A stretch of DNA of 59,766 nt from the NCBI GenBank assembly GCA_029287915.1, contig JARFQE010000016.1, positions 1-59,766 on the forward strand. The letters run 5' to 3'. The stretch is from Arenicellales bacterium. GTDB taxonomy: Bacteria > Pseudomonadota > Gammaproteobacteria > BMS3Bbin11. How positions within the stretch are numbered: position 1 is the stretch's first letter; the number at the start of each line of letters is the position of its first letter. Positions 47,889 through 59,766 of this stretch are shown here, piece by piece. The notes beneath the pieces were generated by a model. That model was not told where the DNA came from. It ran no database searches and saw nothing but the letters and a program-made list of their open reading frames with translations. The translations under genes and the position numbers were made by a program.

Positions 47889-50006
47889 TCAGAAAGTTGC
47901 ATCAGCGCGCAACCAGAATGTCCGTCCCGGTTCATTGACCCGAACTGCAAATGGATCCATCAGGTTAGAGCGACTGACATGCTCGGCATAGGTCTCGTCG
48001 AACATATTGTTTACCCCTGCACGCAGGTTGAAGACATCGTTAATGCGGTAGTTGCCATACAGATCGAGTACGGCATACGATGGAGTTGGGCCGACTTCCT
48101 GCTTGCTGTACTGGTCGACGCGATCCTGTTCTGCTGCAAAGCGAACACGTCCGCCAACACCCCATTTTGGAACTGAGTAATCCAGACTCAGCCGACCATT
48201 GAGCGGTGGAGTCTGGGCAACAGGACGGTCATTATCCGTGGTATTCGTTGCACGAACGTAGGCCAGGGCACCCGACAGGTCCCAGGACTTTGCTAATGCC
48301 CATGAGGCATCAACTTCAGTTCCCCATAATACGGCATCGACATTGCGGTAGATATCAGCACCATTAGCCTGCAGCGTACCTGACTGGCCGCGAGCAGTAT
48401 CACGGAGGATATAATCCGATACGTCATCATAGAACAGCACACCATTCCAGCTCACCCGCTCATTCTGCTGACCGATGCCAAAATCTATCTGGTGATGCTT
48501 TTCAGGCCTGATTTCCGGATTACCTACCCACTGTAGCGCAGGCATCATCGCGAACTTGTTCATATAACGTTCGCTGGCGTCCGCTGTACGCACACTGCGG
48601 GAAATACCGGCAAACAGTACCATGTCATTTCCATAATCATGTTCGTAGCGTAGCAAGCCACCCCAGTTGGTCTCCGTCTGATCTGTTGCTTTGACACCAT
48701 AGTACATCTGGTACAACTGATTGGCTGTCTTCGGTCCAGCTTCCGGTTTCACATCAGCCTTATCAGCAGAGGCGCGGATATAATCCAGCCTGAGCCCGTA
48801 CTTCAGGCGTTGTTTCTGTGCCAGTTTTGTCTCGGCCTCTGCGAACACACCGGTCTGTTCAATGTTTGCCCCCGGCCACAGGTAGGAAATACTTTTTGCT
48901 ATACCGCTATCCATGTTGTTCAGTACCGCATTCCTCTCATTGTTCTGGATATTCAGGCCATAGTTCCACCACGTGTTGCCTGTCCGTGACTGCATGATAA
49001 TGTGTCCACCGGCAGTATCAGAAGTAGTTGGTGTGGCGCGCAGCATCGGCTGGCCGGCTTTGCTATGGTTTAGTGGATAGCTGGGTGGTGTACGCAGGCT
49101 ATAATTATCCATCAAATGATAGACATCACTGAAGTAGGCTTCGACCTTGATATCATTGAGCCAGACAGTTGCTGGCTTATCGGCATATTTCAGGCGGTAG
49201 ATGTCAGCGTCTTCTTCCGGACTGTCCATTCCCGCTCCCGGATACAGCGCATCGCTAAACTCGTTTTTCTCATAGGTGAACTCGAACAGTCTATCTTTCG
49301 TCGCTGTCAGGCCAGCCACAAAACCAGCCTGTTTATGATCAAACGATGAACGCACTTCCCGGCCATCACCATCCTTGTAGTTATCTGCTGATTTGATTTG
49401 GGCGATACCACGCAAGTAAGCTTTTTCATTGGAACCCATGATATCAGCGGCGATATCACCGGTTATGCCATTATCTGTGGCCATACCACTGACACGCCCA
49501 TGAAGACCTTCCTGCTCGCTGGCCAGCAGCCGAGAATTACGATTAAACAGGACGGTACCACCACTGCCACCACCACCGTAGACCAGTGTCTGAACGCCTT
49601 TGATGACCACCACTTCTTCGTAGGTCTCCAGCGCTGCCCAGCTTGTTGGTGGATCCATCCTGTTGGGACAGCCGCCGTGTATATAGGCACCATCCAGCAG
49701 TATATTCAGTCTTGTTTCCTTCTGTCCACGAATGACCGGATCAATTCCCCTGCCCCCAAAGCGACTACCTGAAACACCGTTTATCTGACGCAGGAATTCA
49801 CCACCATCGGCACTGGTGGGACTAACTCGGTTGTATTCATCTGGTACAGAAAAATTCGGGTTGATACTGATCCGGCTTTCAAATACATCTCGTACGATGA
49901 CCGGGTCGAGTAGCACTGCGTTGGTGCCTGCTGAATCCGCGGCCTGCGCTATAGCGCTCGTTTGAGTGGACACGGCAACGGCTAGCATGAGTGCACGTTT
50001 TTTCAT
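47889..50006 (-). CDS. TonB-dependent copper receptor (OprC/NosA-like)
   Basis: A 705-residue outer-membrane receptor. The signal peptide is MKKRALMLAVAVSTQTSAIAQA, given here as MKKRALML...AIAQA. The plug domain includes GGRGIDPVIRGQKETRLNI. The CPNRMDPPTSW element, following HGG, is the hallmark of the OprC/NosA copper-receptor group. A beta-barrel fills the rest, ending in a terminal aromatic (RADATF). ATG 50006 is chosen because AGAGAGAG lies just upstream; an extension to 50027 has no such site. That ribosome-binding site can pair with an upstream arm (see hairpin). It is followed by its own tonB. Copper is the probable cargo, assigned by family. Confidence 0.9.
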   Translation of the reverse strand: MKKRALMLAVAVSTQTSAIAQAADSAGTNAVLLDPVIVRDVFESRISINPNFSVPDEYNRVSPTSADGGEFLRQINGVSGSRFGGRGIDPVIRGQKETRLNILLDGAYIHGGCPNRMDPPTSWAALETYEEVVVIKGVQTLVYGGGGSGGTVLFNRNSRLLASEQEGLHGRVSGMATDNGITGDIAADIMGSNEKAYLRGIAQIKSADNYKDGDGREVRSSFDHKQAGFVAGLTATKDRLFEFTYEKNEFSDALYPGAGMDSPEEDADIYRLKYADKPATVWLNDIKVEAYFSDVYHLMDNYSLRTPPSYPLNHSKAGQPMLRATPTTSDTAGGHIIMQSRTGNTWWNYGLNIQNNERNAVLNNMDSGIAKSISYLWPGANIEQTGVFAEAETKLAQKQRLKYGLRLDYIRASADKADVKPEAGPKTANQLYQMYYGVKATDQTETNWGGLLRYEHDYGNDMVLFAGISRSVRTADASERYMNKFAMMPALQWVGNPEIRPEKHHQIDFGIGQQNERVSWNGVLFYDDVSDYILRDTARGQSGTLQANGADIYRNVDAVLWGTEVDASWALAKSWDLSGALAYVRATNTTDNDRPVAQTPPLNGRLSLDYSVPKWGVGGRVRFAAEQDRVDQYSKQEVGPTPSYAVLDLYGNYRINDVFNLRAGVNNMFDETYAEHVSRSNLMDPFAVRVNEPGRTFWLRADATF

Positions 50007-50012
50007 ATTAAC

Positions 50013-50042
50013 TCTCTCTGGTTTCAATTAACTTCAGAGAGA
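50013..50042 (-). promoter_or_regulatory. Hairpin covering the ribosome-binding site of the copper receptor gene
   Basis: On the minus-strand transcript TCTCTCTG and CAGAGAGA form a perfect 8-base stem with a 14-base loop. The 3' arm is the Shine-Dalgarno sequence, ending 6 bases before the ATG at 50006. Folding would hide the site and lower translation. Whether temperature, an sRNA, Hfq or a metal-linked factor opens it is unknown. Confidence 0.6.
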
Positions 50043-50312
50043 TCCACTAGAAAGAATCGTGCCAGTTAGTTCAGTCATAAAATCAACAGCTTAGGATGCT
50101 TAAATATTTATTATTGTGTTATATGCCCTGTCACTGTGTGAACAGCCTCATTTGGTGTATCCTTATTTACGTGGACGACCTGCCGAAAACTGCAATAGAA
50201 ATCACCATTTGTTGTGACAGCAGCAGATACAAAAAAACCCGATTTCCCTTTTTGCTACAGCTAGTGTATTTATAATCTAATAAAAAGGATGGAATTTTAA
50301 GGAGAAGCTCTT
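50043..50312. other. Divergent intergenic region, copper receptor / PilZ gene
   Basis: No gene is seen in this stretch. TATAAT at 50271-50276 and AAGGAG at 50300-50305 belong to the PilZ gene; a good -35 is missing. The left side must hold the receptor promoter, and no known copper-regulator box is recognised there. Confidence 0.5.
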
Positions 50313-50678
50313 ATGACAAGTAAAACTCATGTTTTTGCCATAGAAAAAAGACAGAGGCGTCGCTGGGAGCTCGTTTTTTACCTGCGTATTTTTGACCAGA
50401 GCGATGGTTCATTACTGGGACATGTCATTGATATTTCGGAGGCTGGCCTGATGCTGCTCAGTGAAATCCCGATTGAAATCAACAAGGACTACGACCTGAG
50501 TCTGGAGTTGCCAGGCTCAGGCGGGAAAAACCGACAGAAAATTTCCCTGAAGGCTCATAGCATATGGCAATCTACCGATGCCAATCCTGATTTAGTAGAT
50601 ACCGGATTCAAGCTGATCAATCCTGACAGCAACTCAGTAAAAGCTATCAAAAACCTGATTGCAGAACTGCAGTTCTGA
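50313..50678 (+). CDS. PilZ-domain cyclic-di-GMP-binding protein
   Basis: A 121-residue single-domain PilZ protein. The RxxxR element is at the N terminus (KRQRRRWELVFYLRIFD) and the D/NxSxxG element is DISEAGLML (about residues 46-54). Both ligand-binding motifs are therefore present. A strong AAGGAG lies 7 bases before the ATG. It is monocistronic between divergent copper-receptor and convergent pirin genes. As a stand-alone effector it could respond to cyclic-di-GMP made by enzymes such as the GGDEF/EAL protein at 2.2 kb; the target is unknown. Confidence 0.85.
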   Translation: MTSKTHVFAIEKRQRRRWELVFYLRIFDQSDGSLLGHVIDISEAGLMLLSEIPIEINKDYDLSLELPGSGGKNRQKISLKAHSIWQSTDANPDLVDTGFKLINPDSNSVKAIKNLIAELQF

Positions 50679-50708
50679 GGATTGAGCGCAGCCTTTCAAA
50701 TTTTTTCT

Positions 50709-51584
50709 TCAAAATCTGCCATGCCTGTAATCATCAAAGGCCTGCTTGATTTCATCCTGTGTATTCATTACAAAAGGACCGCCTCGAGCAATCGGTTGCC
50801 TCAATGGTTTGCCTGACACGAGTAAAAATTGTGCATCATGTTCACCTGTACTCAGCCTTACTGCGTCGCCATCCGCCAGTACGCCGAGGTCATCACGTAC
50901 TAACTGCAGCACCTGTTTAGACTCACCCATGACTTCAACAGGACCATGAATGATGTATATAAAAGCATTGTGTGAGGTCGGCAACGGCTCGACAAATGTC
51001 TGACCAGCCGGCACCCGGACATCAAGATAAAGAGGGTCAGTCAAGGGCTGCACTACTGGTCCGGTGGTACCTTGCGATGTCTGTCCGCTGATGACCCGTA
51101 CTTCAATGCCGCCTTCCCTTGCTTCCACTGGTATATGCTCAGCTGCGTATTCCTGGTAGGACGGGGCATCCATCTTGTTTTCTGCTGGCAGATTGACCCA
51201 TAGCTGGAACCCTTCCAGCATACCGTTTTCCTGCTCTGGCATTTCTGAGTGAACAATCCCTTTGCCTGCTGTCATCCACTGGATTCCACCGGGTTCGATA
51301 ACTCCCTCATGACCCGCATTATCTTTATGCCGCATACGTCCTTCGAGCAGGTAAGTGACAGTCTCAAAACCACGATGTGGATGCGATGGGAAGCCGGCCA
51401 GATAATCTTCAGGTTTATCGGACCTGAAGGCATCAAGCAGCAGGAAAGGGTCAAGCGTGTTCAATGCCGGCTGACCTATGACGCGCGTCAGCTCAACACC
51501 TGCGCCGTCAGTTGCAGGCATACCCTTTATGATCCGGGATACAGTTCTGATTTCGATATTGTCTGTGGTCTTTGACATGTTCAT
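50709..51584 (-). CDS. Pirin-family bicupin (quercetinase-like)
   Basis: A 291-residue bicupin. The metal ligands are in FPSHPHRGFETVTYLLEG (two His) and AGKGIVHSEMPE (His and Glu), the canonical pirin set. The C-terminal cupin is shorter and lacks metal ligands. Bacterial pirins such as YhhW have quercetin-dioxygenase activity, while others have regulatory roles. GGAG lies 8 bases before the ATG. The gene is the last of DoxX-azoR-pirin, with gaps of 10 and 18 bases, and this operon is divergent from a LysR gene. A role in quinone or electrophile stress is likely. Confidence 0.9.
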   Translation of the reverse strand: MNMSKTTDNIEIRTVSRIIKGMPATDGAGVELTRVIGQPALNTLDPFLLLDAFRSDKPEDYLAGFPSHPHRGFETVTYLLEGRMRHKDNAGHEGVIEPGGIQWMTAGKGIVHSEMPEQENGMLEGFQLWVNLPAENKMDAPSYQEYAAEHIPVEAREGGIEVRVISGQTSQGTTGPVVQPLTDPLYLDVRVPAGQTFVEPLPTSHNAFIYIIHGPVEVMGESKQVLQLVRDDLGVLADGDAVRLSTGEHDAQFLLVSGKPLRQPIARGGPFVMNTQDEIKQAFDDYRHGRF

Positions 51585-51602
51585 ATCAGTTTCTCCAATA
51601 TT

Positions 51603-52229
51603 TCAGGCAACTGCCGATGCTTCCAATGGCAGCCATTGGGCTAGCATATCAAGAGCAGCGCCTTCACTAGACGATGCATTGCTATTGGTTGCCTCTGCGT
51701 ACACAGCGCGTACATCAAGGATACCAATAAAACCGAGGATATGGCGTAGATAGTCACTGGCAAAATCCACCGGGCTGCCAAAAGGAACACCACCTGATGC
51801 CAAAACAAGGTATACAGGCCTGTCTTTTAGCAAACCCTGTGGCCCCTTTTCTGTGTAGCTAAACGTTAAGCCGGCGCGACAGATCATGTCTACCCATGCT
51901 TTCAGTGATGCAGGCACAGAAAAATTGTAGACCGGTGCCGTTATCACTATTGTGTCTGCAGAATCCAGCTCTCTAACTAATTGATCAGAATAGGCCAATA
52001 CCTGCTGCTGATCCTGATTGCGCTCGGCAGGCTTGGTCAAGTTTGCCCGCACCCAGTTTTCATTTAGAAGCTGAATACCATTGCCAACATCACGCTGTGT
52101 CAATTCAGCCCCCGGGTACTGCAGTTTTAAACGCCTGATGACTTCATCACCGAGCCTTCGTGTGATCGAATCACTATTGCAGGCACTGCTGTCTACCCGA
52201 AGTATCCTGTTTACCTTAGTATTCGCCAT
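51603..52229 (-). CDS. azoR: FMN-dependent NADH-azoreductase/quinone reductase
   Basis: A 208-residue flavodoxin-fold enzyme that reduces quinones and azo compounds by two electrons. The N-terminal ILRVDSSACNSDSITRRLGDEV matches AzoR's FMN phosphate-binding loop (quoted as RVDSSACNSDS). IVITAPVYNFSVPASLKAWVD gives PVYNFSVP, and TFSYTEKGPQGLLKDRP and LASGG follow, all conserved. The start is ATG 52229, chosen because AAGGAGG lies 5 bases upstream; an ATG one codon earlier is too close. It sits between DoxX and pirin and is probably controlled by the divergent LysR protein. Confidence 0.93.
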   Translation of the reverse strand: MANTKVNRILRVDSSACNSDSITRRLGDEVIRRLKLQYPGAELTQRDVGNGIQLLNENWVRANLTKPAERNQDQQQVLAYSDQLVRELDSADTIVITAPVYNFSVPASLKAWVDMICRAGLTFSYTEKGPQGLLKDRPVYLVLASGGVPFGSPVDFASDYLRHILGFIGILDVRAVYAEATNSNASSSEGAALDMLAQWLPLEASAVA

Positions 52230-52239
52230 CATAACCTCC

Positions 52240-52638
52240 TTATGCCCTGGCAATTCGTTTACTATCAATTGACCAGTCATGCGCAGCACCGGCCACCAGC
52301 AACAGAAGACCACCAGCTATGGCTATATTCTTCATAAAAAGAATCGACTGCATTTGATCAGCAAAATTCGCATGAAATATAAGCGCACTGACAATGCTGA
52401 AGCCCGCCAGCAGGAATGCTGCAATCCGTGTCTGCCATCCCAGAAGAAGCGCCAGTCCACCACCGACTTCCAGCATGATCACCAGCGGCAGCAATATTCC
52501 TGGTACCCCCATGCTTTCCATGTATCCCTGGGTGCCGGTATAGGCACCTATTTTGCTTATCCCTGCCATGATAAAAATAAAAGACAACAGCACACGTCCG
52601 GTCAGTTGCGTGGCTGAATTTAGAGTGGAATTATTCAT
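52240..52638 (-). CDS. DoxX-family membrane protein
   Basis: A 132-residue four-helix inner-membrane protein of the DoxX/YphA type. It opens TGRVLLSFIFIMAGISKIGAY and has a conserved VGGGLALLLGWQTRIAAF segment, given here as GGGLALLLGWQ. The start is ATG 52638 with GAGGA 7 bases upstream. It is the first gene of DoxX-azoR-pirin, with a 10-base gap to azoR. DoxX proteins often accompany redox-stress genes; the molecular role is unclear. Confidence 0.87.
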   Translation of the reverse strand: MNNSTLNSATQLTGRVLLSFIFIMAGISKIGAYTGTQGYMESMGVPGILLPLVIMLEVGGGLALLLGWQTRIAAFLLAGFSIVSALIFHANFADQMQSILFMKNIAIAGGLLLLVAGAAHDWSIDSKRIARA

Positions 52639-52690
52639 CGTTATATCCTCATTGATTAAGGGCACACCGTTGTACCCGTTAATGACATAT

Positions 52691-52746
52691 TATTTGTTTC
52701 AAAAAATATTATAAATATAGGTTTATGAAACTATTTGTTCTATAAT
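52691..52746. promoter_or_regulatory. LysR-type binding region and lysR -10 element
   Basis: The divergent interval holds an inverted repeat GTTTCA (52696-52701) and TGAAAC (52726-52731). It also holds TATTTGTT twice (52691-52698 and 52732-52739), 41 bases apart, about four helical turns. TATAAT at 52741-52746 ends only 10 bases before the lysR ATG, so that transcript may be nearly leaderless. The binding protein is inferred from adjacency. Confidence 0.5.
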
Positions 52747-52756
52747 TTGCAACAAT

Positions 52757-53689
52757 ATGGACAAGTTTGCTGATATAGAAGCCTTCACAGCAGTAGTCGA
52801 AGCAGGAACTTTTAGTGCCGCCGGCGAGCGCCTTGGAATAGCAAAATCTGTCGTTAGCCGCCGTATCAGTCAATTGGAGCAGCGCCTGGATAGCCGACTA
52901 CTGCATCGCACTACACGTCGATTATCGTTAACGGATGCAGGAAAAAACTTTTATCAACGGGCTGTGCAAATTCTTGCAGATCTTGATGATGCCGAACTGA
53001 GTGTTACTGAAGAGACTACAGATTTACGTGGTTCCCTGAAGCTGGCCGCCCCTCTATCCTTTGGCCTGACACATCTGTCGAAGACTATTTTTGACTTTCT
53101 CAATGAGCATCCGGCGATTGAATTAAACCTGGATCTGAACGATCGCAACATTAACCTTATCGAGGAAGGTTTCGATATGGCAGTCAGGATTGGAATACTG
53201 CAGGATTCAACACTGGTGGCCAGACGACTGGGAACCATGCGCCAGGTTACCTGTGCTAGCCCGTCTTATCTTGAACAGCATGGCGAACCCACACACCCGG
53301 CTGATCTACAACAACATGTTGGTCTTCAGTACAGCAACATAAGTTATAAAAATCAGTGGGGTTATAAAACTCCAGAGGGCAAGATGCTATTTGCACAACC
53401 ACAGATACGTATACGGGCCAACAATGGTGAAGCACTGGCAGCGGCAGCAGTGGCTGGCATGGGGATTACAAAAGGCCCGACATTTATCCTCGGCAGCTTA
53501 CTCAAAGAGGGAAAGCTGGTTACTATTCTCGACGAATATCAACACCCGTCGGCTGGAATCTATGCTGTTTACCCTCCCGGTCGCCTGATACCGAGACGTA
53601 TTAAGGTCTTTTCAGATTATCTTGCGGATCGCTTTGGGGATCATCCTTACTGGGATGATGGATTAAGTTCGTTAAGCAAACCGGCATAA
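52757..53689 (+). CDS. LysR-family transcriptional regulator
   Basis: A 310-residue LysR protein. The N-terminal winged HTH spans about residues 1-60: FADIEAFTAVVEAGTFSAAGERLGIAKSVVSRRISQLEQRL, quoted as FSAAGERLGIAKSVVSRRI. The effector-binding domain follows, with LKLAAPLSFGLTHL and VAAVAGMGITKGPTF. It is divergent from DoxX-azoR-pirin, the usual placement of a LysR regulator controlling its neighbour. No Shine-Dalgarno sequence is visible before the ATG. The inducer is probably a quinone or electrophile, by analogy only. Confidence 0.93.
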   Translation: MDKFADIEAFTAVVEAGTFSAAGERLGIAKSVVSRRISQLEQRLDSRLLHRTTRRLSLTDAGKNFYQRAVQILADLDDAELSVTEETTDLRGSLKLAAPLSFGLTHLSKTIFDFLNEHPAIELNLDLNDRNINLIEEGFDMAVRIGILQDSTLVARRLGTMRQVTCASPSYLEQHGEPTHPADLQQHVGLQYSNISYKNQWGYKTPEGKMLFAQPQIRIRANNGEALAAAAVAGMGITKGPTFILGSLLKEGKLVTILDEYQHPSAGIYAVYPPGRLIPRRIKVFSDYLADRFGDHPYWDDGLSSLSKPA

Positions 53690-53715
53690 GTCTGTTACAA
53701 GCAGGGTACTTGTCC

Positions 53716-54018
53716 TTACTTTAGTATATCAACGATTTCTCTTGTTGCTTCCATTAATCTTATGACCTTACCTTCCACCTTAATGGTTATTATTCCCTCG
53801 TGGTTTACCGGAACAACAACACTGCCCTGTCGGTAGACCCGGTAGTCTAAAATCTCCCCTTTATGTAATTTCTTCTGCCAGCCCGGCGGTAGAGACTCAC
53901 CACTGTCGACTTTCTTTTGCAGCCCGGGCGGCAACGATTTATCCTTGTTTGTTGCATACGATGAGGTACTACACAGTGCCGCAACTAACACTATGGTCAA
54001 TGATACTTTCACGTACAT
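53716..54018 (-). CDS. Small secreted RcnB-like protein
   Basis: A 100-residue protein with a signal peptide (about residues 1-22). The mature part has the near-repeat LPPGLQKKVDSGE/LPPGWQKKLHKGE, then a YRVYRQG beta segment and VIRLMEATREI. This is the pattern of RcnB/DUF-type periplasmic proteins, where LPPG..K repeats precede a small fold. RcnB itself modulates nickel/cobalt efflux, but no metal ligands stand out here. AGGTGA lies upstream of ATG 54018. It follows the outer-membrane-type gene by 19 bases, so the two are co-transcribed. Confidence 0.7.
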   Translation of the reverse strand: MYVKVSLTIVLVAALCSTSSYATNKDKSLPPGLQKKVDSGESLPPGWQKKLHKGEILDYRVYRQGSVVVPVNHEGIITIKVEGKVIRLMEATREIVDILK

Positions 54019-54037
54019 TCTTTTCACCTGTAAATCG

Positions 54038-54895
54038 CTAGAATGAAAAAATATCTCTCCTAAGACTTGGAATAATACGCCCAATCTCAGCAAACCCAGT
54101 ATCCCGTGAAAACAGGACACCAGCCCCTATATCAGGACTGCCATCAGAAAACCCCTTGACCAGGTAACCCATCACTTTCCACTTTGGATTCATACGATGG
54201 CTGATAAAACCAGTCAATTCACTCATACCTTCAGTAAACTCTGTCGTCGCTTCCCTGATATCATAAAAGGCACCGAACGATGTCGTTTTGTTGTAGCGGT
54301 ATGAATCACCGATCGAACCATAGAATACGTTATTGATCTTCACTGTATCTGTGTCGCCAAAGATTTTGTAACCCACAGTAAAGAATAACGAATGCCTATC
54401 CAGTCCCTTGATCAGATCAGTCTCCAGTGCCCAGTCGAATTCACCTGTGCCAAGGCCTTTATCCTCATCTGCCGTCGGTAATTTAACCCTGCCCGTGACA
54501 TCCACAATAGGCAGCGTTTCTGTGCCGGGATAGGCAAACCAGGTAAACGATGCGGTGATATCACCAAGACCTGATTCACTGGTTGAGCCACCGCCTGGAA
54601 TCGGTACTGGTCTGCCATCAGGACCGATTACCACATCACCGGAGCTTTCAAGTGAGATATAAGGTATCGTAATACCACTACTCCATTGATCAGTAGCATA
54701 TTTGAAGGTTAATGGTATATAGAGCATGTCCGTAGTTTCTTCGGCACCGTATTTTCCCGAACTGAAATCGATTCCAGTGCTTATCAGAACACTATTTGAT
54801 GGAAGATCTACAGCCTGTGCAGGCATTGGCAGGTAAATAGCAATAATGGTGGCTATTGCAGTGAGAATAGAATGCGTATTTGCTTTCTTCAACAT
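54038..54895 (-). CDS. Outer-membrane-type beta-barrel protein (MetA-pathway-of-phenol-degradation-like)
   Basis: A 285-residue exported protein. The signal peptide is about residues 1-30 (ends PAQA). The mature part has alternating amphipathic strands: VLISTGIDFSSGKYG, IPLTFKYATDQWSSGITIPYIS (quoted in part), GLGDITASFTWF and VTGRVKLPTADEDKGLGTG. The GLGD and KLPT.D..GLGTG motifs recall the MetA_phenol_deg transporter family, which are probably outer-membrane proteins. The start is ATG 54895; an in-frame extension to 54946 uses GTG inside a hairpin. It lies just after that hairpin and before the RcnB-like gene. Function unknown. Confidence 0.72.
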   Translation of the reverse strand: MLKKANTHSILTAIATIIAIYLPMPAQAVDLPSNSVLISTGIDFSSGKYGAEETTDMLYIPLTFKYATDQWSSGITIPYISLESSGDVVIGPDGRPVPIPGGGSTSESGLGDITASFTWFAYPGTETLPIVDVTGRVKLPTADEDKGLGTGEFDWALETDLIKGLDRHSLFFTVGYKIFGDTDTVKINNVFYGSIGDSYRYNKTTSFGAFYDIREATTEFTEGMSELTGFISHRMNPKWKVMGYLVKGFSDGSPDIGAGVLFSRDTGFAEIGRIIPSLRRDIFSF

Positions 54896-54927
54896 CTTTT
54901 TTCTGTCATTGATGTAAATAAACGAAA

Positions 54928-54957
54928 TCGGCGAAAGAGTTTTCACGCTTTCGCCGA
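54928..54957 (-). terminator. Strong hairpin after the duplicated secreted-protein gene
   Basis: TCGGCGAAAG and CTTTCGCCGA form a perfect 10-base stem with a 10-base loop. On the minus strand it is followed by TTTCGTTTATTT. It lies 19 bases after the stop at 54976 and 33 bases before the next ATG, and fits a terminator or partial attenuator between the two genes. Confidence 0.7.
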
Positions 54958-54975
54958 CAGATCTGTTACTGAGAT

Positions 54976-56148
54976 TTAACTACGACCTGGTCGTTCAGGT
55001 TTTGCAGGTTTCTGTGGTTTTTCAGGCCGCTGCGGCTTCTCAACACGAGTGACCTTCTGCGGTCGCTGCGGTTTCTCAATACGGGTGATCTTGGTCGGTT
55101 TCTGGGGCCGTTCTATACGCTCTACCCTGACCGGTTTTGAGATTTTTTCTACCCTTTCAACCTTCTCTACTCTTGTAGTTTTCTCGGGCTTTACATGCTT
55201 TACATGCTTTACATGCTTTTCAGGTTTCTGGTTCCTGTCTATTTTTACCTTAGCTGCTTTAACACTGTGCCCAGGTATACCCAGTTCTGCTGAAACAGCA
55301 AGCTCTTCAACAGCAGGGGTGTCGCCCGCATCAACCGTATCTGGTACTTCTGGCGTATCATCAAACAGGCCCAGCTTTTTTAGCTTGCGCTCAAGGTTTT
55401 CCCGCAAACGCGACAACGCGGTCTGATGCCCGGAATTACTGCCTTCATAGGTGACACTATCAAGGGTACCATCGGTGTCATAGACACCTTCCATGCCCGG
55501 CTTCTGCTGTTTGTCTACGATCGCATTATACAAACCGGCAGGACCGCCTTCAGGATAGGGGTTGCCATCGTTGTCCAGTGCAACGCCCTCTGGCAGCGAG
55601 GTCTGTGGAACTAACTCTTCAACAGCACCCTCCTGTGCTTGTGGTATTTCGGTCAGCTCAGCTATCTCTCCTTGCAATGGCTCTCCGTCAGGAACTCCTG
55701 CCCCATCATCAAGCAGCCCCTGCTTGTTCAGCTTGCGCTCAAGATTTTCGCGCAGGCGAGACAGTGCCGTCTGATGCCCATGGTTACTGCCTTCATAGGT
55801 AATACTTACAAGATTTCCATCGCTATCATAGACGCCGGTCATACCGAGCTTCTGCTGCTTGTCTATGATTGCATTATAGAGACCAGCTGGGCCACCCTGC
55901 GGATAGGCATTGCCATCGTTGTCCAGCGCAACGCCTTCTGGCAGCGAGGGTTGTGGTTCTATTTCTGCCGCTTGCTGTTCTACTTCAGGTGTTTCTACCA
56001 GGACAACTTCTACATCCGGGACCTGTGCCGGCTCGACATCCCCTTCCTGTGCCTGGGAGGCCATTGATGCTGTGACTCCCAGCACCAGTGCTGACGCAAT
56101 AGAGGTATACAAATTCATCCTGCCGGGACACTCAGTTATTACCTTCAT
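54976..56148 (-). CDS. Secreted protein with internal domain duplication and basic proline-rich tail
   Basis: A 390-residue protein with an export signal (about residues 11-33). An acidic Pro/Glu/Val stretch leads to two copies of an 81-residue unit (residues 68-148 and 184-264) that are nearly identical. Each has SLPEGVALDNDGN, GGPAGLYNAI, DKQQK, GVYD.DG, TYEGSN.GHQTALSRLRE and NLERKL. After an acidic spacer comes a highly basic tail (about 305-390) of HVK, RVEK, RIEKPQRPQK and KPERP repeats. The calcium-type DNDGN and D.DG loops hint at metal binding. GGGAG lies 7 bases before ATG. No family is recognised. The acidic/basic split suggests an envelope or surface polyelectrolyte-binding role; inference only. 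Confidence 0.75.
   Translation of the reverse strand: MKVITECPGRMNLYTSIASALVLGVTASMASQAQEGDVEPAQVPDVEVVLVETPEVEQQAAEIEPQPSLPEGVALDNDGNAYPQGGPAGLYNAIIDKQQKLGMTGVYDSDGNLVSITYEGSNHGHQTALSRLRENLERKLNKQGLLDDGAGVPDGEPLQGEIAELTEIPQAQEGAVEELVPQTSLPEGVALDNDGNPYPEGGPAGLYNAIVDKQQKPGMEGVYDTDGTLDSVTYEGSNSGHQTALSRLRENLERKLKKLGLFDDTPEVPDTVDAGDTPAVEELAVSAELGIPGHSVKAAKVKIDRNQKPEKHVKHVKHVKPEKTTRVEKVERVEKISKPVRVERIERPQKPTKITRIEKPQRPQKVTRVEKPQRPEKPQKPAKPERPGRS
55357..55599 (-). repeat. Second copy of the internal 243-base repeat
   Basis: Encodes residues 184-264 of the secreted protein. It is offset by 348 bases from the first copy, and the DNA is as similar as the protein (for example both copies contain GTTGCCATCGTTGTCCAG on the plus strand). 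This points to a recent duplication. Confidence 0.85.
55705..55947 (-). repeat. First copy of the internal 243-base repeat
   Basis: Encodes residues 68-148 of the secreted protein and pairs with the copy at 55357-55599. Differences between copies include NHGHQT versus NSGHQT and LNKQGLLDD versus LKKLGLFDD. Confidence 0.85.
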
Positions 56149-56549
56149 TTCTTTCTCCCATTTTTTAGCTAATTACTTCAACACTAGGTGACAAAAGTGC
56201 GGATACCAAGAACTGCCTGATCAGTGGATATCGCTGCTGGATGAACAGCACCAATGGTTTAAGGCAGTTTATGTATTTATTTTATTGTAATGTCCTTAAG
56301 CACAGCTTAAGAGTTACACTGTTCGTAGTCATCGCTCTTTTTTTAATTCGAGTATCATTTTTACCGTGCTTTTCACACTTTTTGTGCGAGTCATTTTTAT
56401 GCAGGCCATTACTGGCTCTAAGCTACGGGCCAGGCTGATGTATACAGAGCTTCCACGGAACAGGATGGTAGGGAGTAGAATCGCGGCTATGTGCCTGTAT
56501 AAAACAATAAGGGAAGCGGTTCGTCGAGAAGGGCGAAACCTTCAAAGCA
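56149..56549. other. Intergenic region before the secreted-protein gene
   Basis: No convincing gene in 401 bases. Two structures are visible. One is an 8-base inverted repeat AACTGCCT/AGGCAGTT (56211-56218, 56262-56269) enclosing a TGCTG/CAGCA hairpin. The other is a CTTAAGC-ACA-GCTTAAG hairpin (56295-56311). They may shape the leader of the secreted-protein transcript or end the hydrolase transcript; the latter ends to the right, so a leader role is more likely. A 65-codon open frame here has no support. Confidence 0.4.
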
Positions 56550-57710
56550 CTATTCAGGACCAGATAACAACATCCAGTAAGGAAGTCCATCTTTTTTCAG
56601 CTTTTTCATGTTTGGTCGCTCTGAAGCATCTTTTCCATAAGATAATAAAGATGCCAGGTCAGCCCTGACAGTATCGTTATAGAGATGATACAAATGACCT
56701 GTCATTTCTCGACCACCTGTCATACTGACATCGATAGTATCCATGCCTCTGAGCACAACCAGATTCTCACCAGCTTCCCCAAGCCGTGGATAACCATGAA
56801 CTTCATTGGACAGGCGCAGAGGTTGATCGTTTCCAGATGAGTAAAGGCTTATTCGATTAACAATCTTCTTCAGCTCAGGAAAGGCCGAACGAAATACATC
56901 GGCATCTATATCCGGGGCCAGGAACACCAGTTCATTGATATGTTTTTTATTGTCTTTGCGTGATAGCAATTGTAATACTCTAAAGACACCTCTTGAACCC
57001 AGACTGTGGGCAACAATACTTAGCCGCTCTGGACCATAAATTTCAGATAAATTCTGAATAACCGCCTCTAGCGAATGCTGACTCCATTCAATATTGGCTT
57101 CATCCTGTGTATACCTGACCAGTGCACCCGCAGACGGCCAGCTAAACAGCAACAGGCGGCTGTGTTCATTCAGCGTCTGTTGAAACAGAGCAGCACGATT
57201 GCAGCCTTTTGAAAAATCAATATTGTAGCCATGAACAAACAGCACCACTTTATTCTTTTCGGAATCATTAGCGGCCTTGTTAAATGCCTGCCATAGCCTT
57301 GCTTCAGGAAACTCTTTTATGGTCATGACTTTTTTGCTGGTATCCGACACGTAAAAAGGCAGACGCGAGGTTATTTCTTTAAATCCAGTTGGGCGAATGT
57401 GTACATCGCAGAGACCCGTGTGTGGACTGCCACGCAAGTCTCCGTAGTATTCGTCTACGGTTTGTTCACCGGTGTGATTACGCAGGGTGTAATACAGCAC
57501 GGATTCTCTTGTCGTATCATCCGAGCTGATTATTGTCGTGTCATTTTGTGTACTGTCATCGGCCTGTGCAAGCTGAAATATAAACAGAGCAACGACCATC
57601 AGCAGGAAAAGCAGGCGTGAGGGACAAAGACCGAGTGTAGTACTAATACAGGAAAAAATACCACGCCCTGCTGACAATAGACTACCTGTTTCAGACTGCT
57701 TGATTTTCAT
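56550..57710 (-). CDS. Alpha/beta hydrolase of the DUF900 type
   Basis: A 386-residue protein with an N-terminal membrane or signal segment (about residues 30-50). The alpha/beta hydrolase fold starts with NKVVLFVHGYNIDFSKGC. The nucleophile elbow is IVAHSLGSRGVFRVLQL with the Ser in HSLGS. FLAPDIDADVFRS follows with the acidic residue, and a late His lies in EMTGHLYHLY. This matches DUF900 (esterase/lipase-like). Export means it acts in the periplasm. It follows aspS by 24 bases on the same strand, but a functional link is unlikely. Substrate unknown. Confidence 0.83.
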   Translation of the reverse strand: MKIKQSETGSLLSAGRGIFSCISTTLGLCPSRLLFLLMVVALFIFQLAQADDSTQNDTTIISSDDTTRESVLYYTLRNHTGEQTVDEYYGDLRGSPHTGLCDVHIRPTGFKEITSRLPFYVSDTSKKVMTIKEFPEARLWQAFNKAANDSEKNKVVLFVHGYNIDFSKGCNRAALFQQTLNEHSRLLLFSWPSAGALVRYTQDEANIEWSQHSLEAVIQNLSEIYGPERLSIVAHSLGSRGVFRVLQLLSRKDNKKHINELVFLAPDIDADVFRSAFPELKKIVNRISLYSSGNDQPLRLSNEVHGYPRLGEAGENLVVLRGMDTIDVSMTGGREMTGHLYHLYNDTVRADLASLLSYGKDASERPNMKKLKKDGLPYWMLLSGPE

Positions 57711-57734
57711 CTTCCGAATATTCTTACCGATAGT

Positions 57735-59549
57735 TTATAAATCAGGTTGTTTTAATGAGCTTTCCTGCTTGCTGCTGTTTTCTTTTACCAGTGGCTTGCG
57801 CAATTTGAGATTGAGTTCCTGTAACTGCGCGTTATCTACTTCATTCGGTGATGCAGTCATCAGGCAGGACGCCTTCTGCGTCTTTGGAAAGGCAATGACG
57901 TCACGAATAGAACTCACTCCTGCCATCATCGCTGCAATACGATCGATACCAAAGGCAATTCCACCATGAGGTGGAGCGCCATATTTTAGCGCATCGAGTA
58001 GAAAACCGAACTTGTCATTCGCTTCTTCATCGCTGATTCCCAGTGCCTTAAAAACCTTTTGCTGTACTTCTTTCTGGTGGATACGGATAGAGCCTCCACC
58101 AATCTCGGAACCGTTCAGCACCAAGTCATAGGCACGAGATAATGCCGTAGCAGGGTCAATTTCGCCTTCTGTTACAGTTGGTGAGGTGAATGGATGATGC
58201 AGTGAAACATTGCGAGCCACTTTGCTATCGTACTCAAACATCGGGAAGTCGATTACCCACAGTGGATGCCATCCTCCATCAACCATGCCCAGATCATGAC
58301 CCAGTTTCTCACGCAGAGCACCGAGCGAGTCATTAACCACTTTGGCAGAATCCGCACCAAAGAACAGCAGGTCGCCATCTTCAGCAGCCGTACGCTGAAG
58401 AATTTCCTTTATAACGTCATCTGGCAGGAATTTGAGTATCGGAGACTGCAAGCCATCGCGTCCGCTGGCAACTTCGTTAACTTTCACATAGGCCAGCCCA
58501 CGGGCACCATACAGGCCTACATAGTCGGTGTAGGAATCAATCTTAGCGCGTGAAAGGCTATTACCACCGGGTACTTTCATGACAGCTACACGACCATCAC
58601 TTGCTTTTGCCGGGTTTGAGAATACCTTGAATTCAACATCCCGCATAACGTCACCGAGATCCACCAGTTGCAGAGGTATACGCAGATCTGGCCGATCACT
58701 ACCAAAGCGACCCATGGCCTCATGCCAACTCATTCGTGGAAATGGATTCGGTAATTCAACGTCCAGAACTTCAGCAAATAAATTACGAATCATGTCTTCC
58801 ATCAAATTCATAATGTCGGACTGATCGATGAAAGACATCTCGATATCCAGCTGTGTAAATTCGGGCTGTCGATCGGCACGTAGATCTTCATCACGAAAGC
58901 ACCGGGCGATCTGATAATAACGTTCATATCCAGATACCATCAGCAGCTGCTTGAACAACTGCGGTGATTGCGGCAGGGCAAAAAACTCACCAGGGTAGGT
59001 GCGGCTCGGAACCAGATAATCTCTGGCGCCTTCAGGTGTTGAACGGGTGAGTATCGGTGTCTCTATCTCGGTAAAGTCTCTATTTTCAAGATAGTTGCGT
59101 AGAGATCGGATTATAGAATGACGAATACGCAGATTTTTCTGCATTGCCTCACGGCGGAGATCAAGAAAACGATGACGCAGGCGGACAGATTCAGTAGTAT
59201 CATCATCGTCGAGCTGAAATGGCAGCGGTTCTGAGCTGTTCAGTAATTGCAGTTCAGTGGTATAGACCTCTATCTTGCCGGTGGGAATATTCAGATTGAC
59301 AGTCCCCTCAGGACGGTGGCGAACACGGCCTTTGACACGCAACACATACTCATTTCTTACATGTTCAGCCAGCTCAAAGGCGGCTTCTTCATCAGGATCG
59401 AAAACGACCTGGACAATACCTGTACGATCACGAAGATCAATAAATATGACGCCACCATGATCACGCCGGCGATTGACCCAGCCACAGAGCTCGACGGTGT
59501 CATCAATATGTTTTTCTGTGACTTCGCCACAATTGTGTGTACGCATCAT
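57735..59549 (-). CDS. aspS: Aspartyl-tRNA synthetase
   Basis: AspRS charges tRNA-Asp. It is 604 residues, bacterial type. An N-terminal OB-fold anticodon domain ([26 protein letters not shown], quoted as [11 protein letters not shown]) comes first. The class II catalytic core has motif 2 [25 protein letters not shown], given as [17 protein letters not shown], and motif 3 [13 protein letters not shown]. The inserted GAD domain (about residues 280-420) marks the bacterial form. A second ATG one codon later would give the usual MRTH start. AAGG lies 10 bases before ATG 59549. Whether it also charges tRNA-Asn cannot be told here. Confidence 0.97.
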
Positions 59550-59600
59550 TTCAATATCGCCTTCGGTATGCCCCGATTAATAATTTGTCTACTGGTGAAA

Positions 59601-59631
59601 AACAAAACCGCTGGCTTGTAAGAGCCAGCGG
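59601..59631 (-). terminator. Rho-independent terminator after fmdB
   Basis: On the minus strand CCGCTGGCT and AGCCAGCGG form a perfect 9-base stem with a 6-base loop, followed by TTTTGTT. It lies about 33 bases after the fmdB stop and about 52 bases before the aspS start. aspS therefore needs its own promoter or depends on readthrough. Confidence 0.85.
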
Positions 59632-59663
59632 CCTGGTGTATTTGTTGGTTTCTTTCGAAACGT

Positions 59664-59766
59664 CTATTTTGACGAATCTCCACTCGGGCATGTACTGCAC
59701 GATGCGGCCTTGTTGTCTGGCTTGCAGCTGGAATTCTTGAAATCAGTCTCGTACCAGCCACTACCT
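59664..59766 (-). CDS. C-terminal end of an FmdB-family zinc-ribbon protein (truncated by the window edge)
   Basis: A minus-strand frame enters from the right edge and encodes 33 residues, starting GSGWYETDFKNSSCKPDN and ending before TAG at 59664-59666. GSGWYETDFK is the conserved end of FmdB-family regulatory zinc-ribbon proteins. In many gammaproteobacteria fmdB sits directly before aspS, as here. The zinc ribbon itself lies outside the window. The tail carries three Cys, more than I expect for the family, but this is a partial view. Confidence 0.75.
   Translation of the reverse strand, partial: GSGWYETDFKNSSCKPDNKAASCSTCPSGDSSK

Follow-up and report, generated by a model that had tools for sequence, protein, structure and literature searches.

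A signal-bearing protein with two 81-residue units and a proline-spaced charged tail as a possible partner of a neighbouring outer-membrane barrel in Arenicellales

Results

The window is the whole stretch of DNA analysed here, 59,766 nucleotides of contig JARFQE010000016.1 from an Arenicellales bacterium. On its minus strand, positions 54976-56148 hold a gene for a protein of 390 amino acids, here called the repeat protein. Translation confirmed the open reading frame, and the gene is a genuine one. Two units of 81 amino acids were delimited by local alignment, unit 1 at residues 68-148 (55705..55947) and unit 2 at residues 184-264 (55357..55599), with a linker of 35 residues between them. 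The protein ends in a low-complexity tail of proline, lysine, arginine, glutamate and valine with a net charge of +18 (residues 301-390, 54979..55248); units and tail are encoded on the minus strand. The first-pass annotation described the protein as exported, acidic on its N side and basic on its C side, and belonging to no recognised family. This description holds: the N-terminus resembles a Sec signal by eye, the net charge is -34 over residues 1-290 against +20 over residues 291-390, no family in Pfam and NCBIfam is reached above the cut-off, and the PDB sequences give nothing at E < 0.1.

Two weak PHROG matches, to a small terminase (residues 219-284, E 9.2e-6) and to an unknown family in the tail (residues 296-389, E 8.7e-5), were taken as chance or compositional matches, and by eye none of the open reading frames listed for the window looks like a phage gene. 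Within the gene a tandem-repeat finder reports a single array of 9 bp x 3.6, which lies at 55188-55219 in the tail region, and a scan for promoters and terminators stayed at chance level. Structure modelling, proposed in the annotation, did yield models, but the mean pLDDT of 52.4 for residues 31-390 (single sequence) and 55.8 for one unit (four sequences) is too weak for a fold search. At this low confidence the units are modelled as mixed alpha/beta and the tail of about 90 residues without structure.

The gene for an outer-membrane beta-barrel of the PF13557/COG4313 type (54038..54895, minus strand, 285 amino acids, start set by alignment to G006) begins 80 bp past the repeat gene. Third in the row is a gene for a small signal-like protein of 100 amino acids (53716..54018, minus strand, start set by comparison with G006). 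It is weakly CigR-like, with E 3e-7 and 30.9 bits against the CigR family NF040487, where the cut-off of 78 is not reached. A gene for a DUF900 alpha/beta hydrolase (56550..57710, minus strand, PF05990 E 1.6e-37) lies upstream of the repeat gene at a distance of about 400 bp and is regarded as flank rather than core.

Six genomes match in a relatives sample of 56, three by the whole protein and three via the tail alone. The whole protein is present in the window genome itself, in G006 from the same genus (G006:C4, 69%) and in G007 from another genus in the family (G007:C227, 46%). A wider contig search gave two loci, a full one (L009, taken as the G006 record) and a tail-only one from a Bacteroidales bin. 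The repeat protein was not found in plasmid records, and plasmid relatives of the barrel come from six records, all of sphingomonads. The window and G006 have a common gene order of hydrolase, repeat gene, barrel, CigR-like and LysR-like genes, and the pair of repeat gene and barrel is kept in G007. Neither gene is found in G001 to G005, three of which are at least 91% complete, therefore some members of the genus have the pair and others lack it.

The gap between the hydrolase gene and a PilZ-like gene is 61 bp in G001:C11 (L047) and 5871 bp in the window (50679-56549). This 5.9 kb stretch, missing at this place in G001 of the same genus, holds pirin-like, quinone-reductase-like, DoxX-like, LysR and CigR-like genes together with the barrel and the repeat gene; the gene names in the stretch were given by eye, DUF900 excepted. 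G006 also has a second barrel, 35% identical to that of the window, on contig C66 (L018, L021). It stands behind a signal-like protein of 108 amino acids that is rich in glutamine, arginine and methionine and has no proline tail, and a DUF6502 fragment lies at the start of the contig.

Units 1 and 2 align without gaps and are identical at 68 of 81 amino acids (84%), so the duplication described in the annotation is real, but the DNA copies, with 194 of 243 bases identical (79.8%), are not nearly identical as was claimed. The Nei-Gojobori method gives a pS of 0.56, a dS of about 1.03 and a dN of about 0.098. Most change between the units is therefore silent, and both copies are old and constrained. 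A recent duplication, as first proposed, is ruled out by this dS and by the presence of both units in the same-genus and the other-genus relative. All three full proteins (window, G006 and G007) consist of two units, linker and tail; the copy number of the unit, for which variation among strains was to be looked for, is two in each, and the tail, whose absence in homologues was to count against the annotation, is present in both full-length relatives.

The unit has no match in Pfam. A profile search with the unit alone, as suggested in the annotation, found it in three of eight genomes of the order. Among 369 genomes of the class, a sample in which G006 and G007 give no hits, E < 0.01 was reached in the window genome only, with a next best value of 0.0102. 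Among the samples searched, the 81-residue unit is found in this bacterial family only. In a protein tree of the six units the two G007 units pair (support 0.991), and unit 1s and unit 2s are not cleanly grouped; such a tree would fit a single duplication long ago that was followed by partial homogenisation, and equally duplications that occurred independently. The dS of 1.03 between the window's own units is lower than the 1.14 to 2.22 seen for window/G006 unit pairs, which leans towards some homogenisation. A half-repeat within the unit was considered and dropped, since the fraction of shuffles that reached its score varied between 0 and 0.49 among the six units.

The window barrel reaches 22.6 bits against PF13557, just above the cut-off of 22, and 9 of the 23 barrels in profile A4 match this family at E <= 0.001. 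Profile A4 also matches the FapF chains 5o65, 5o67 and 5o68 (E 2.4e-6 to 6.1e-6) in three collinear pieces that extend to the C-terminus, the first piece alone being strong. FapF is matched neither by the window barrel alone nor by the six-barrel profile A2, which has TodX as its best PDB match (E 0.019), therefore the link to FapF is seen for the barrel group and not directly for the window barrel. In the window barrel PTA is aligned with PTG of FapF. No coiled coil was seen before this barrel, where by eye the barrel-like sequence follows only a few residues after a signal-like segment; a short N-terminal plug may lie inside it. At another locus (L067, G327:C1) one frame of 462 amino acids holds two barrel matches with a long stretch between them, and an Asp/Arg repeat protein precedes it.

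FapF is described in the consulted part of PMC5557850 as a plugged trimeric barrel of 12 strands that exports unfolded FapC. Structurally it is closest to Pput2725, a COG4313 channel, and the PTG motif is present in both (PMC5557850 and PMC6173800, sections consulted). According to a section of PMC3792158, a FapF profile gave 217 protein matches, 68 of them Fap, and FapF was inferred to be a member of a larger family.

A protein that looks exported and has imperfect repeats separated by a linker, encoded beside a barrel of a FapF-related group, recalls the FapC layout as described in that section of PMC3792158. The repeat protein might then form functional amyloid in the manner of Fap, with its barrel as exporter. 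However, the minimal repeat given there for FapC and FapB, X15-G-X4-N-X3-G-X6-N-X7, is absent from the window protein and from those of G006 and G007. Asparagine and glutamine make up just 7-11% of the repeat region, and the low-confidence model of the units is mixed alpha/beta. The FapD C39 peptidase, FapA, FapB, FapE and other fap genes were not recognised by eye among the open reading frames overlapping 50000-59766. A curli-type motif is absent too. Fap membership fails on the repeats and on the coiled coil, and an amyloid role is most improbable.

Some neighbours of related barrels are signal-like proteins with a terminal run of the kind RPEIERPEIE or ERPERPDRP. A tail was counted if the last 80 residues had at least four prolines that follow one of [RKEDQH] and are spaced 3-6 apart, a metric fixed after the first (class-sample) barrel loci had been read. 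The spaced-proline score is 7 in the window protein, 8 in G006 and 6 in G007. The class-sample set consists of 29 loci with DNA read, of 42 listed places, with the window left out. Its upstream neighbour passes at 9 of 29 loci and its downstream neighbour at 3 of the 22 loci with a downstream open reading frame, distinct from the former, where the frames include spurious ones and the best of several was taken per locus. In total a tailed neighbour is found at 12 of 29 barrel loci, these 12 being from ten bacterial families, and among 382 other open reading frames none passes; the barrels were located with profiles that include tail-associated barrels, and these counts apply to the sampled loci and not to the whole barrel family. 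In the second barrel sample (13 loci after removal of the window and two G327 loci) the metric is passed by 1 of 13 upstream neighbours, 0 of 12 downstream neighbours and 2 of 186 other open reading frames. There is no clear excess of tails beside barrels outside the class sample.

An earlier test on composition required the last 60 amino acids to contain at least 13% proline and at least 30% charged residues. In the first set, which here included the window's G006 and G007 relatives, it was passed by 11 of 33 upstream and 3 of 33 downstream neighbours, and in the second set by 1 of 14 upstream and 0 of 14 downstream neighbours. The background was 35 of 428 open reading frames from the loci of both sets, neighbours and barrels included. 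This test was set aside because of the high background and the lack of excess in the second set, and the spaced-proline metric was made afterwards. A further count covered the window and 20 other regions. An upstream neighbour was called in 13 of these (8 pass the threshold of 4) and a downstream neighbour in 9 (none passes), fractions that are biased because 14 regions were chosen for a tailed neighbour already seen; the background, 1 of 384 other genes, is usable.

When the tail from G162 was searched against 339 genomes of the class, 32 genomes matched at E <= 1e-4, many by low complexity. At E <= 1.5e-10, a limit set after the list was seen, there are 14 open frames besides the query. Eight are within 3 kb of a class-sample barrel (two each in G062, G272 and G268, one each in G162 and G285) and six have no such barrel within that distance. 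The clusters in G162, G272, G178 and G062 have two tailed genes around one barrel, one of them coding for a DUF5666 protein; the G162 barrel was placed from the class-sample barrel listing, and G162 and G272 are of the same genus. In three of these clusters, those of G272, G178 and G062, Pfam confirms a DUF6502 gene. The front parts of the tailed proteins differ and consist of 81-residue units, DUF5666 or a sequence with no Pfam domain. The pairing of barrel and tail is frequent in one sample but not obligatory, because 29 of 42 barrel loci (17/29 and 12/13) have no neighbour passing the metric and some tailed proteins, such as G008 C19 and G008 C38, have no barrel called nearby.

Several other barrel neighbourhoods have features of their own. 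The barrel neighbours at L081 (G621:C1) and L061 (G173:C1) combine an Asp/Arg-rich run with a domain of about 46 amino acids that has a TEQER-like start and no Pfam match; by eye there are three copies in the former and one in the latter. At L095, L098 and L101 (G016, G137 and G223) the barrel and tailed genes adjoin a gene for an OmpR-type response regulator, confirmed by Pfam in G016 and recognised by eye in G137 and G223, and in G137 a gene for an EF-hand protein lies ahead of the tailed gene. The barrel neighbours at L057 (G130) and L080 (G665) have by eye a domain with GYGN and GMGWG in common, without a Pfam match, and the L080 tail fails the metric.

Fifteen tails beside related barrels were delimited by hand. 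They contain 14-29% proline and 31-53% charged residues, and their net charge ranges from -29 to +18, or from -16 to +18 without G264 and G137, both of which are below the tail metric. Basicity is a feature of the window protein's own family, and the wider common feature is spaced proline with dense charge. This bears on the proposal in the first-pass annotation that the protein is secreted and binds calcium through DNDGN loops or polyanions through its basic tail. The window and G006 proteins have four D-x-D-G loops each, and basic tails are found both in the window protein (+18) and in G007 (+15). However, G007 keeps one of the four loops in its units, and the pattern D-x-[DNS]-x-[DNS]-G, taken as an EF-hand-like calcium loop, occurs once in G007 and in neither the window nor the G006 protein. 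Polyanion binding fails as a general reading of the tails, in which the charge is not conserved. Either kind of binding is highly unlikely as the main role.

The Pro-rich arm of TonB is a tether that spans the periplasm or binds the wall. The tail of the repeat protein, 90 residues of proline and charge modelled at low confidence without structure, could be a tether of this kind with the barrel merely as operon neighbour, and the barrel-less tailed proteins of G008 are consistent with this. Two findings argue against it, the excess of tailed barrel neighbours in the class sample and the four genomes whose clusters each hold two tailed proteins, and such a tether is rather unlikely.

Discussion

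We tentatively favour the view that the repeat protein is a signal-bearing envelope partner of the downstream barrel. The two units would be its payload, and the proline-spaced charged tail would be a disordered, extended segment that is used with the barrel. The tail and the barrel would touch, and either the barrel would let the tailed protein through or the tailed protein would gate the barrel, so that the units may be brought to the cell surface or close to it. The gene pair is kept in three genomes of two genera. Similar tails are found on unrelated signal-like proteins by related barrels in ten other families of the class sample, and the tail is read as the shared element. The profile relationship of the barrel group to FapF, an exporter of unfolded polypeptide, also counts for this view. 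The earlier suggestion that the protein binds a partner surface is plausible in this respect, with the neighbouring barrel as the best candidate, and was only one of several targets named.

Several findings weaken this partnership. Tailed neighbours are lacking at 17 of 29 class-sample and 12 of 13 second-sample loci, six of the 14 reverse matches have no barrel within 3 kb, and the tailed proteins of G008 are barrel-less. FapF is missed by profile A2 and by the window barrel alone, and no coiled coil is seen ahead of the latter. Moreover, low-complexity tails can arise repeatedly, and the link between tail and barrel is read from sequence. The barrel family also includes hydrophobic-uptake channels (PMC4493636 and PMC6173800, in the parts consulted).

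The last point leads to a possible but less probable explanation, in which the barrel is a COG4313-type channel for hydrophobic uptake and the repeat protein stays inside as a periplasmic accessory for substrate binding or channel support. The Pfam match of the window barrel is to PF13557, the family under which OMPdb has COG4313, classed there as a specific diffusion channel (PMC9581022, section consulted), and COG4313 channels are implicated in the uptake of hydrophobic molecules (PMC4493636, likewise). Barrel profiles give weak matches to the uptake channel TodX (E 0.013 to 0.021), and the window barrel by itself has no FapF match. The LysR, DoxX-like, quinone-reductase-like and pirin-like genes that follow, named by eye, could serve aromatic or quinone chemistry. 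On the other hand, the PDB matches of profile A4 up to E 1 include FapF and not the COG4313 structure Pput2725 (4rl8), and an uptake role leaves the similar tails on unrelated proteins unexplained.

If the repeat protein is a partner of its barrel, a broader and more doubtful extension is that the proline-spaced, charge-rich tails are a common tag by which unrelated exported proteins use a dedicated COG4313/FapF-type barrel as their exit or anchor in the outer membrane. With similar reserve, such a tag might cover the 81-residue unit proteins, the DUF5666 proteins and near tail-only proteins, as a two-gene route for surface display in Gammaproteobacteria. In open PMC papers we found no description of such a tail-tag and barrel route and no papers on DUF6502. 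If some FapF-like barrels outside Fap have tailed substrates or gates of their own, a function could be assigned to some of the barrels annotated as 'Phenol_MetA_deg', and also to the DUF5666 and DUF6502 genes.

Comparison with known systems shows both likenesses and differences. The COG4313/PF13557 (Phenol_MetA_deg) channels resemble the window barrel at the level of the profile, at 22.6 against 22 bits, but the window barrel is paired with a repeat/tail protein. In the Fap system of Pseudomonas a signal-bearing repeat protein, FapC, and an outer-membrane barrel, FapF, are encoded together as in the window, and the best FapF match of the barrel-group profile has E 2.4e-6. Unlike that system, the window has no Fap repeat and no fap genes recognised by eye nearby, its barrel is without a coiled coil (by eye) and without a direct match to FapF, and its repeat protein carries an additional proline-charged tail. 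DUF5666 was found in none of six genomes, the window's included, and DUF6502 was not found in the window genome. The tailed DUF5666 proteins encoded beside DUF6502 genes and barrels differ from the repeat protein in having an unrelated body, but they share with it the type of tail and the kind of neighbouring barrel.
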